A stretch of DNA of 29,194 bases from a virus. Made by a program: the position numbers and the translations under genes. The notes under the pieces are model-generated. The model did not search any database, was not told the origin of the DNA, and worked only from the letters and a program-made list of their open reading frames with translations. Below are positions 11,156 to 29,194 of this stretch, piece after piece. How positions within the stretch are numbered: position 1 is the first letter of the stretch; every line of letters starts with the position of its first letter. The DNA is taken from positions 1-29,194 of IMG/VR virus record IMGVR_UViG_3300030430_001171. One strand, given 5' to 3'.

Positions 11156-11229
11156 TGAAACCTAAGCACCAACTACCTATTATTATAGTTTGGGCTTTTG
11201 TACTTATTATATTAGCAACCTTTATATAA
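11155..11229 (+). CDS. 24-residue single-membrane-span peptide
   Basis: A short open frame starting on the last base of the metallophosphoesterase stop (TAATG). The peptide starts MKPKHQLP and then has a continuous hydrophobic run IIIVWAFVLIILATFI to the end, so it is almost only a membrane helix with a basic head. Coupling and the clean hydrophobic profile suggest a real product. Function unknown; a lysis accessory role is possible. Confidence 0.4.
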   Translation: MKPKHQLPIIIVWAFVLIILATFI

Positions 11230-11234
11230 CTTTC

Positions 11235-11253
11235 TTAACACTATAATTGTTAA
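11235..11253. promoter_or_regulatory. Inverted repeat, candidate operator 1
   Basis: TTAACA and TGTTAA with a seven-base spacer (19-base element). It lies upstream of the early promoter at 11294, with a second similar repeat 8 bases downstream. Confidence 0.35.
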
Positions 11254-11260
11254 TAACTTT

Positions 11261-11277
11261 CTAACTTATTATGTTAG
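11261..11277. promoter_or_regulatory. Inverted repeat, candidate operator 2 covering the -33 region
   Basis: CTAAC and GTTAG with a seven-base spacer (17-base element). It covers the place where the -33 element of the 11294 promoter would be. It shares the TAAC/GTTA arms with the repeat at 11235, so a single dimeric regulator could bind both. Confidence 0.4.
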
Positions 11278-11293
11278 TATATATATTTTTTTG

Positions 11294-11301
11294 TATATTT
11301 G
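11294..11301 (+). promoter_or_regulatory. Early promoter, Bacteroidota-type -7 box TATATTTG
   Basis: A perfect match to the TAnnTTTG -7 consensus used by the Bacteroidota primary sigma factor. The next gene starts at 11306, five bases after the box, so transcription would begin at or next to the ATG. No clear TTG lies at -33; a palindrome sits there instead. It drives the early block. Confidence 0.75.
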
Positions 11302-11305
11302 CAGT

Positions 11306-11461
11306 ATGAAAACAATAACAACAACTCAATATTGGATAAACAAAAGAAGTAAACTTGTTTGGAAAGTTCAACAGTCAGAAAATGACATTATTATCTTTAG
11401 ACATAACACAACTAAATTAATAAGTATTGAGAGCTTGTTAAAAAACTATATAAAAAAATAA
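11306..11461 (+). CDS. Small basic early protein, unknown
   Basis: A 51-residue protein, first gene after the early promoter (MKTITTTQYWINKRSKLVWK at the start, ending SIESLLKNYIKK). The pattern of short strands followed by a final basic helix could be a small nucleic acid- or protein-binding fold. First early genes in phages often redirect host functions, but nothing here identifies a target. The mRNA would be leaderless if the promoter spacing is as seen. Confidence 0.55.
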   Translation: MKTITTTQYWINKRSKLVWKVQQSENDIIIFRHNTTKLISIESLLKNYIKK

Positions 11462-17107: not shown

Positions 17108-17167
17108 TCATCTAAGTTTTCTTGTTTATTGTTTTTTTGTTATTTCTACTATTTACCATACTTTTTT
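17092..17167 (+). terminator. Long-loop terminator or small RNA after the Cys-rich gene
   Basis: AAAGTATGGTAA (17092-17103) pairs perfectly with TTACCATACTTT (17153-17164). A short extension GTAG/CTAC is possible inside, with a bulge. T residues follow to 17167. The enclosed segment is 49 bases and very T-rich. The layout matches the hairpin at 13291 (12-pair stem, long loop, T run). Confidence 0.6.
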
Positions 17168-17179
17168 AAAATTTAAAAT

Positions 17180-17305
17180 ATGATAGAATTTTTAAGACAC
17201 GCTACGGGCTTATGCGGTGAACCACACCCAAGTTTGCTTACTTTACTGTTTGGTACACCTATAGTAGGATATTTACTAATGAAATTTAAAAACAAAAACA
17301 AATGA
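17180..17305 (+). CDS. Tiny membrane-associated protein with GLCGEPHPS motif
   Basis: A 41-residue protein (MIEFLRHATGLCGEPHPSLL, then a hydrophobic run TLLFGTPIVGYLLMKF and a Lys/Asn tail). The TGLCGEPHPS segment looks like a conserved motif that I recall from tiny proteins in other Bacteroidota phages. A single membrane helix follows it. Its stop overlaps the start of the next gene by ATGA. Function unknown. Confidence 0.5.
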   Translation: MIEFLRHATGLCGEPHPSLLTLLFGTPIVGYLLMKFKNKNK

Positions 17306-17454
17306 GTATATTTTTTGGAATTATATTAGGTTTTTTTGTGTTTGCTTTTATAATTATAAGCTATTTAGAGTATAGAGCTGACCTACACGAAATGCACATA
17401 CTAAAAGATAAATTAAAAAAATATGAAGAGCAAGAAAAAATTAAAAATACCTAA
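17302..17454 (+). CDS. Small membrane protein with cytoplasmic coiled tail
   Basis: A 50-residue protein: membrane helix at residues 3-20 (IFFGIILGFFVFAFIIIS), then a charged helix (EYRADLHEMHILKDKLKKYE) to the end. It overlaps both neighbours (ATGA at 17302; the next ATG at 17423 is inside it). It could form a small complex with the previous membrane protein. Function unknown; it resembles spanin-like or exclusion proteins only in general layout. Confidence 0.5.
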   Translation: MSIFFGIILGFFVFAFIIISYLEYRADLHEMHILKDKLKKYEEQEKIKNT

Positions 17455-19067: not shown

Positions 19068-19331
19068 ATGAATACACACGGTGGTAAAAGAGTAGGAGCT
19101 GGACGTAAAAGTAAAGCTGACGAACAAAAGCTAATAGAAAATCTAACGCCTATGAATAGTTTGGCTTTACAGTCGCTACAAGAGGGCTTAGAAAAAAAAG
19201 AACAATGGGCGGTTAAATTATTCTTTGAATATTTTTACGGTAAACCTCAACAAAGAGTAGATGTTACTACAAACGACGAAAGCCTTAATATGCCTTTAAT
19301 AAACTTTGTAGAAACTGAAACTAAACGATAA
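19068..19331 (+). CDS. terS: Terminase small subunit
   Basis: An 87-residue protein with the opening GGKRVGAGRKSKADEQK, the GG.R.GAGRK signature of many small terminases and DNA-binding helix-turn-helix proteins. A helix-rich core follows (MNSLALQSLQEGLEKKEQWA, VKLFFEYFYGKPQQ) and an acidic tail. It binds phage DNA at the packaging site and directs the large subunit. Its final 20 bases overlap the open frame of the large subunit, which has no normal start, so the two may be linked (see findings). Confidence 0.8.
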   Translation: MNTHGGKRVGAGRKSKADEQKLIENLTPMNSLALQSLQEGLEKKEQWAVKLFFEYFYGKPQQRVDVTTNDESLNMPLINFVETETKR

Positions 19332-20517
19332 ATATAAACAACTATTTGAAAGCGACGCTAGATACTTTATAATAACTGGCGGTAGAGGTAGTGGTAAAAG
19401 TTTCGCAGTAACAGTATTTCTAACATTACTAACAATGACTAAAAATATTAGAGTATTGTTTACACGTTATACTATGGTTTCAGCACACTTAAGTATTATA
19501 CCTGAGTTTTTAGAAAAAATTACACTACTAGGTTTTGACAATTTATTTAGCGTCAATAAAGCTGAGGTAGTTAATTTAGGTAACAAAAGCGACATACTAT
19601 TTAGAGGTATAAAAACAAGCGCTGGTAATCAAACTGCAAGTCTAAAAAGTTTAACTGGTGTAAGTACGTGGGTATTAGATGAGGCAGAGGAATTAATAGA
19701 CGAAGATATATTTGATACTATTGACCTGAGTATAAGAGAAAAAAATATACAAAATAGAATTATACTTATACTTAACCCAGTTACTAAAGAACACTGGATA
19801 TATAATAGGTTTTTTTTAAACAAAGGCGTAGAGGCTGGTTTTAACGGCGTTAAAGACAATATATGCTATATACATAGTACATACCTAGACAATATAGATA
19901 ATCTGTCTAAGAGCTTTATAGGGCGTATAAACACTATAAAACATAATAACATAAAAAAATATAATCACAAAATACTTGGTGGTTGGTTAGACAAAGCAGA
20001 GGGTGTAGTATTCGAGAATTGGACTATAGGCGAGTTTAACCCCGACAACTTGCAAACATCTTGCGGTATGGACTTTGGTTTTTCTGTAGACCCTGACAGT
20101 TTAGTAGAGGTTGCAATAGATAAGAAAAAAAAGAAGATGTATTTAAAAGAGCATATATACAAGAACGGTCTAAAGTCACACGAACTAGCAGAAATAGTAT
20201 TAGACAAAGTAGGCAATAAACTTATAATAGGTGATAGCGCGGAGCCTAGACTTATAGAAGATTTAAAACATTTAGGCGTAAATATAAAGCCAGTAAAAAA
20301 GGGTACAATAGAAAGCGGTATAACACGTATGCAAGATTACGAGTTAGTCGTATGTCCTAATTCTACTAATATAGCTAAAGAACTAAATAACTATATATAT
20401 GCAGATAAAGGCTCTAAGCTCTATGTAGACGCTTACAACCATAGTATAGACGCAATAAGATATAACGTTATTTACCACTTAGACAACCCTAATTACGGTA
20501 AGTATTTTGTGCAATAA
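19315..20517 (+). CDS. terL: Terminase large subunit
   Basis: A 400-residue ATPase-nuclease if it starts at the CTG at 19315. Walker A GGRGSGKS is at 22-29 and Walker B VLDEAEEL near 120. A coupling region follows with ILILNPVTKEHWIYNRFF, then the RNaseH-like nuclease with Asp253 (GMDFGFSVDP), Asp307 (GDSAEP) and Asp379 (HSIDAIRY). This is the Terminase_3 (PBSX/XtmB-like) layout. The frame opens right after a TAG at 19309-19311, and no ATG, GTG or TTG occurs before the Walker A. The first ATG (19435) would delete Walker A and cannot be the start. It packages DNA into the prohead and is followed by a strong terminator. Confidence 0.9.
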   Translation: MKLNDKYKQLFESDARYFIITGGRGSGKSFAVTVFLTLLTMTKNIRVLFTRYTMVSAHLSIIPEFLEKITLLGFDNLFSVNKAEVVNLGNKSDILFRGIKTSAGNQTASLKSLTGVSTWVLDEAEELIDEDIFDTIDLSIREKNIQNRIILILNPVTKEHWIYNRFFLNKGVEAGFNGVKDNICYIHSTYLDNIDNLSKSFIGRINTIKHNNIKKYNHKILGGWLDKAEGVVFENWTIGEFNPDNLQTSCGMDFGFSVDPDSLVEVAIDKKKKKMYLKEHIYKNGLKSHELAEIVLDKVGNKLIIGDSAEPRLIEDLKHLGVNIKPVKKGTIESGITRMQDYELVVCPNSTNIAKELNNYIYADKGSKLYVDAYNHSIDAIRYNVIYHLDNPNYGKYFVQ

Positions 20518-20552: not shown

Positions 20553-20786
20553 TTATAAATTATTAAAATCTGACTCGTATTTAGTTAAATTTCTAAATTT
20601 TAAAAAGTTCTCTACCATTAACTCAATATGTATAGGGGTAATAAATATACAGTTGTTAAAAGTTTTGCCGTCAGTTAACTCGTGTGTTGAGTTACATACA
20701 TAAGTTAATTGTCCGTGTGTAAAGGTAAACCTTTTCTGAGTTAGAGCTTTAGCTAATTTTGTTTCAATTGATGTTAAGTTTTTCAT
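20553..20786 (-). CDS. Lone minus-strand gene, unknown function
   Basis: A 77-residue protein, the only minus-strand gene supported here. It is basic at the start (MKNLTSIETKLAKALTQKRF) and then has a strand-rich middle (TFTHGQLTYVCNSTHEL, NCIFITPIHIEL) and a short helical end with NFLKFRNLTKYESDFNNL. It has two Cys and no membrane helix or helix-turn-helix that I can see. It has its own host-type promoter on the minus strand and shares the terminator at 20521. Such isolated units are typical of morons: host-benefit, exclusion or anti-defence genes. No homologue is recognised. Confidence 0.65.
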   Translation of the reverse strand: MKNLTSIETKLAKALTQKRFTFTHGQLTYVCNSTHELTDGKTFNNCIFITPIHIELMVENFLKFRNLTKYESDFNNL

Positions 20787-28802: not shown

Positions 28803-29194
28803 ATGGCTAAAGAGGAAATAACATTAAGCGTCAAATCAGATATAAGCGCTACAACAAAAGACGTACAAGGTTTAGCGAGTGAATTTAAAGTAATGGGTGT
28901 AAGTTTAAACACTATAAAAAGTAGTTTAAAATCTGTTGGTACTATAGCTAAGAGTTCATTTAAAACTATTACTATGGGTATAAAATCTACTGGTATAGGT
29001 TTACTTGTTATTGCTTTTGGTAGTTTAGTAACATTTTTAACTAAAACAAAACGAGGCGCAGAAATTTTAGAAGTTGCTTTTGCTGGTTTAAGTGCAACGT
29101 TTAACGTTATAGTTGACAGAGTTAGTAAATTTGGTGGTGCAATAGTAAAACTTTTTCAAGGAAAAGGTAAAGAGGCACTACAAGACGTCAAAGG
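28803..29194 (+). CDS. Tail tape measure protein, N-terminal part (continues at base 1)
   Basis: The ATG at 28803 opens a frame that runs off the window end in phase with base 1. The first 96 codons to 29090 encode SLNTIKSSLKSVGTIAKSSF, a short amphipathic and hydrophobic stretch (TGIGLLVIAFGSLVTFLTKT), and KRGAEILEVAFAGLSATFNV, a hallmark of tape-measure proteins. At 472 residues the whole protein is short. The gene starts one base after the fibre stop. The 29091-29194 segment repeats the first 104 bases of the window. Confidence 0.85.
   Translation, partial: MAKEEITLSVKSDISATTKDVQGLASEFKVMGVSLNTIKSSLKSVGTIAKSSFKTITMGIKSTGIGLLVIAFGSLVTFLTKTKRGAEILEVAFAGLSATFNVIVDRVSKFGGAIVKLFQGKGKEALQDVK
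29091..29194. repeat. Terminal redundancy, right copy
   Basis: It repeats bases 1-104 with one change (C at 29189 in place of T at 99). The change is GTC for GTT, both Val, in the tape-measure gene, so the two copies differ silently. This is consistent with small variation in the sequenced population or a single base error. Confidence 0.93.

Follow-up and report, generated by a model that had tools for sequence, protein, structure and literature searches.

CTG as the probable start codon of the large terminase gene in a clade of marine phages

CTG hardly ever serves as a start codon in bacteria. According to Hecht et al., as cited in PMC11983097, only 20 of nearly 85,000 genes of model genomes are annotated with a CTG start, and in E. 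coli the yield from a CTG start is about ten times lower than that from TTG. The CTG start of the FIB rep gene, found on F-like plasmids of E. coli, was proven by N-terminal analysis and by loss upon the change of CTG to CTC (PMC11983097). This codon is tied to low output, and annotations usually place the start of the gene, wrongly, at a standard codon further 3′; as described in the same paper, FIB rep depends on a good Shine-Dalgarno site and does not start within a preceding gene. In phages, the terS gene of Streptococcus thermophilus phage TP-J34 has a predicted AUU start, a rare start in a packaging gene, which was resequenced to exclude an error and is preceded by a strong Shine-Dalgarno site (PMC3952083). 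A CTG start was also predicted for ORF10 of Bacteroides phage phiB124-14, which belongs to the phages of Bacteroidota (PMC3338817), as the phage studied here probably does. No terminase starting at CTG was found in an open-access literature search.

The terL gene described here resembles FIB rep in that a conserved CTG appears to start a gene of a mobile element but differs from it in having no evident Shine-Dalgarno site and in a putative start that lies inside terS. It differs from the TP-J34 case in the subunit (TerL, not TerS), in the codon (CTG, not AUU) and in the Shine-Dalgarno context, while its likeness to phiB124-14 ORF10, a single predicted ORF, is one of start codon and not of conservation. 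Among described phages, Nonlabens phages P12024S and P12024L (genus Inhavirus) share with it a TerL of 62-63% identity, a 17-nt overlap with the upstream gene and a weak non-ATG start; in both of them, however, terL is annotated from TTG, which is one of the standard alternatives to ATG. CTG starts as such are already known, and the putative one of terL is a new and unusually well conserved case.

The DNA analyzed (the window, 29,194 nt in full) comprises positions 1 to 29,194 of IMGVR_UViG_3300030430_001171, a virus record derived from a metagenome. Its ends (1-104 and 29091-29194) repeat each other over ~104 nt, as judged by 25-mers with up to 3 mismatches, and on this ground the record appears to be the circularly complete genome of a phage, about 29.1 kb long. 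Features of the terminase locus are collected in Table 1. TerL is a PBSX-type large terminase subunit: it matches the TIGR01547 profile above the curated threshold (147.7 bits, cut-off 105, E 6e-43) as well as the Pfam families Terminase_3 and Terminase_3C (PF04466, 112.7 vs. cut-off 23.2; PF17288, 55.6 vs. cut-off 26.7). The product of the upstream gene had no Pfam or NCBIfam match; it is named here as a putative TerS from its position and from 30% identity to the product of the gene immediately 5′ of terL in P12024S. Elsewhere in the window, a lone reverse-strand ORF of 77 aa directly follows terL (20553-20786, minus strand), and a 315-nt stretch between forward genes (17108-17422) contains no long ORF.

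Table 1. Coordinates of the terS-terL locus in the window.
Feature	Position	Strand	Basis
terS, putative small terminase subunit, 87 aa, ATG start	19068..19331	+	ORF; position and P12024S similarity
In-frame stop TAG opening the terL frame, two codons 5′ of CTG	19309..19311	+	sequence
CTG, inferred terL start codon	19315..19317	+	clade conservation; outgroup standard starts in this slot or close to it
terL, large terminase subunit, 400 aa counted from CTG	19315..20517, stop included	+	TIGR01547, Terminase_3, Terminase_3C, 38-homologue alignment, N-terminal fold
terS/terL overlap, 17 nt	19315..19331	+	sequence
terS end, CGA TAA	19326-19331	+	sequence
Walker A motif GGRGSGKS of TerL	19378..19401	+	sequence, homologue alignment
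First ATG in frame with terL; Walker A would be lost from a protein started there	19435..19437	+	ORF reading

The terL open frame spans 19312-20517, lies in the +1 frame relative to terS, and reads K-L(CTG 19315)-K-L-N-D-K-Y-K-Q-L-F-E-S-D-A-R-Y-F-I-I-T-GGRGSGKS. No ATG, GTG or TTG is present in this frame between the TAG and Walker A. The original prediction that terL has no standard start before this motif, and that a start at the first ATG would cost the gene the motif, holds in all its coordinates and in the frame relation; this ATG lies 3′ of Walker A. With the CTG start, Walker A occupies residues 22-29 of TerL. In an AlphaFold2 model of this protein, a helix (residues 5-12) and a strand (17-22) lead into the P-loop with a pLDDT of about 87-94, so that an N-terminus at the CTG has the look of a genuine domain boundary; the product of the ATG would be without helix 1, strand 1 and Walker A. 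An 81-codon open frame (11216-11461) that was considered as a second start-less gene of the window has an internal ATG and looks ordinary.

Searches with TerL against viral and genome contigs and a few phage records retrieved 424 loci with 241 distinct TerL sequences. We defined the clade of the window as those with at least 79.7% amino acid identity to its TerL (172 distinct sequences from many metagenomes, the window included), the outgroup as 65 sequences beyond it, and the slot as the codon that lies 21 codons 5′ of Walker A. The slot codon is CTG in 144 of the 172 clade sequences, CCG in 22 and TTG in six. In 106 of the 144 CTG sequences, including that of the window, the stretch from the upstream stop to the Walker A region contains no standard start, and an in-frame stop is located two codons before CTG in 98 of the 144. 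In another 38 CTG-bearing sequences (L055, L075, L140, L160, L300 and others), the in-frame stop is gone, a TTG is present 2-3 codons upstream and the CTG is kept; these may start at TTG. All 22 CCG sequences (L168, L172-L191 and L263) carry a TTG two codons upstream of the slot, which makes this subgroup a natural start-codon switch. In all outgroup sequences (65/65), a standard start (39 ATG, 22 TTG and 4 GTG) occupies the slot or lies no more than a few codons away, and it often falls on the slot codon itself (ATG in L158, L118 and L123; GTG in L128; TTG in L169). With the start-less frame recurring in so many clade members, always with CTG at the slot, and in none of the outgroup, coincidence is not a sufficient account. 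In an alignment of 39 sequences, the N-terminus of the CTG-started protein is only a few residues away from that of nearly all homologues. The alignment of close relatives that had been suggested together with the original prediction has thus been carried out, and it strongly supports one of the two options offered there, a start at this CTG. The place and identity of the terL start codon are well supported by these comparisons.

In a TerL tree made without the start region (a quick tree, with SH-aLRT support only), the clade of the window has a support of 98%. CTG-bearing sequences (L264 and L274) sit on its deepest branch, and the CCG group with upstream TTG and the TTG group each form a single nested clade (97%). 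Because of this arrangement, CTG was probably present in the ancestor of the clade and was replaced only where TTG was available.

Several database records among the relatives call for comment. In OQ791282.1 (Shigella phage Henu10), the coordinates and score of TerL are the same as in Riemerella phage PT15, which suggests a mislabelled or mixed record, and in MZ995504.1 (Riemerella phage) the terL gene is annotated as a DNA methylase. Two clade contigs, PBGL02000003.1 (L167) and PAPR01000004.1 (L168), belong to bins named Euryarchaeota and Pseudooceanicola; given the flavobacterial relatives, these names are probably binning errors.

A CTG codon conserved in this way could also be an ordinary leucine codon held in place by two overlapping reading frames, with TerL starting elsewhere, for example at some other near-cognate codon 5′ of Walker A or, in part of the sequences, at an upstream TTG. 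The terS frame does read all three bases of the CTG: C is position 2 and T the wobble position of a Thr/Ser codon, and G is position 1 of a Glu, Asp or Gly codon (mostly Glu/Asp). Moreover, CTG is kept in 38/38 of the sequences with TTG 2-3 codons upstream, where it is maybe not needed as a start. Against this, leucine is not required at the slot, which in relatives holds a Met, Val or Pro codon. Over a set of 143 CTG-bearing sequences, CTG accounts for 143/143 codons at the slot, compared with 229/4684 (about 5%) over 33 other conserved Leu columns; this set was chosen for CTG, and the unselected figure is the 144/172 given above, with all exceptions having a standard start at the slot or two codons from it. 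The other conserved Leu columns of TerL drift among six codons, none of them being fixed as CTG, and across the genes of the window only 5 of 674 Leu codons are CTG. Leucine conservation was therefore rejected as the sole cause of the CTG. In start-less sequences, no other start-like codon is conserved before Walker A, the loss of CTG in the CCG sequences is always paired with the TTG upstream, and the truncated product of the first ATG would be without the N-terminal elements described above. We consider it improbable that the CTG is nothing but a dual-coding leucine.

The overlap itself allows one to see where the constraint from the terL reading begins. The terS wobble base under the CTG is T in 141/141 sequences, whereas other terS Thr codons, such as that at -16 (ACT 86, ACA 46, ACG 5 and ACC 4), have a mixed wobble, and wobble variation returns just upstream of the CTG; since the wobble T is fixed at CTG and mixed upstream, the constraint begins at CTG. 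A single C to G change would turn the slot into GTG at the cost to TerS of a Thr to Ser replacement, which the clade tolerates at that residue, yet GTG is found at the slot in 0/172 clade sequences. With GTG one tolerated step away, the terS overlap is insufficient as the sole trap that keeps CTG, although it may contribute. The overlap measures 11, 14 or 17 nt in the clade and mostly 14-20 nt in outgroup members with the same frame-1 arrangement.

The second option of the original prediction, a programmed +1 frameshift near CGA-TAA at the terS end, would give a TerS-TerL fusion, with TerL having no start of its own. The two frames overlap in the correct +1 relation, and the absence of a standard start from 106 terL frames of the clade would be accounted for. 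The comparison of relatives did not bear this option out. The position of the terS stop and the final codons both vary, CGA TAA occurs in two sequences only, and no conserved slippery site or stop-codon context for a +1 frameshift was found among the relatives. RNA structure is not conserved either: there are 0 consensus pairs, and single sequences fold no better than shuffles. The stop two codons before CTG (98/144), together with the constraint that starts at CTG, leaves about one codon for the shift. In homologues, ATG, GTG or TTG begins TerL at this very place. A frameshift is thus very unlikely. That an error of sequencing or assembly removed the start codon or broke the frame, conceivable for a single metagenome-derived record and named at the outset as what would refute the finding, is ruled out by the same start-less layout in 105 other distinct sequences assembled independently from many metagenomes, including one (L002) of 99.8% identity.

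Weak initiation at terL does not seem to be confined to the clade of the window. No cultured phage was found within that clade; in the cultured relative P12024S (L082, JQ823122 21928-23136), 48 genes were checked, and terL, with its annotated TTG, is the sole one that does not start at ATG. TTG or GTG starts are found in 26/65 sister TerL genes compared with 3/89 other genes of the window and P12024S (Fisher p = 6e-9, an optimistic value since the sequences are related). This suggests that terL initiation is weak across the whole lineage.

The reading that we favor, with a probability of about 0.88, is that terL is translated from CTG 19315, read by the initiator fMet-tRNA, most likely in a manner coupled to terS and probably with a low output of packaging motor. 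The protein would then begin with fMet-KLNDKYKQLFESDARYFIITGGRGSGKS... (fMet-KLNDKYK...). Since the start lies 17 nt inside the 3′ end of terS, ribosomes that translate terS and terminate on it most likely expose the site, and the same ribosomes most likely supply the weak CTG start. A terL start inside the terS end, with an overlap of 11-17 nt throughout the clade, is in keeping with a translationally coupled gene pair; in E. coli, coupling is not mainly due to leftover ribosomes that reinitiate (PMC7538156). Related flavobacterial phages indicate that the hosts are probably Bacteroidota without Shine-Dalgarno sequences. In Flavobacterium johnsoniae, a member of this phylum, A at position -3 aids initiation (PMC6847099), and position -3 of the CTG is A or G in all clade members. 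No phage tRNA able to read CTG at the start was found, the window containing no tRNA. Since GTG, a single step away, does not occur at the slot in the clade, and since TTG and GTG starts are so frequent in sister TerL genes, one can tentatively propose, at clearly less than even odds, that the weak CTG itself is selected, with ribosomes that do not use Shine-Dalgarno sites and help from terS fixing a low TerL:TerS ratio for packaging.

Natural CTG starts have rarely been demonstrated, and here one is seemingly fixed in an essential gene across a clade of marine phages. Judging from their usual set of start codons, gene finders limited to ATG, GTG and TTG would, for much of the group, call a shortened TerL that has lost the ATP-binding Walker A motif; TerL is a key marker gene of phages. 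The clade would also offer a natural test of how ribosomes of Bacteroidota choose start codons without Shine-Dalgarno sequences and of how the dose of a packaging motor is set.
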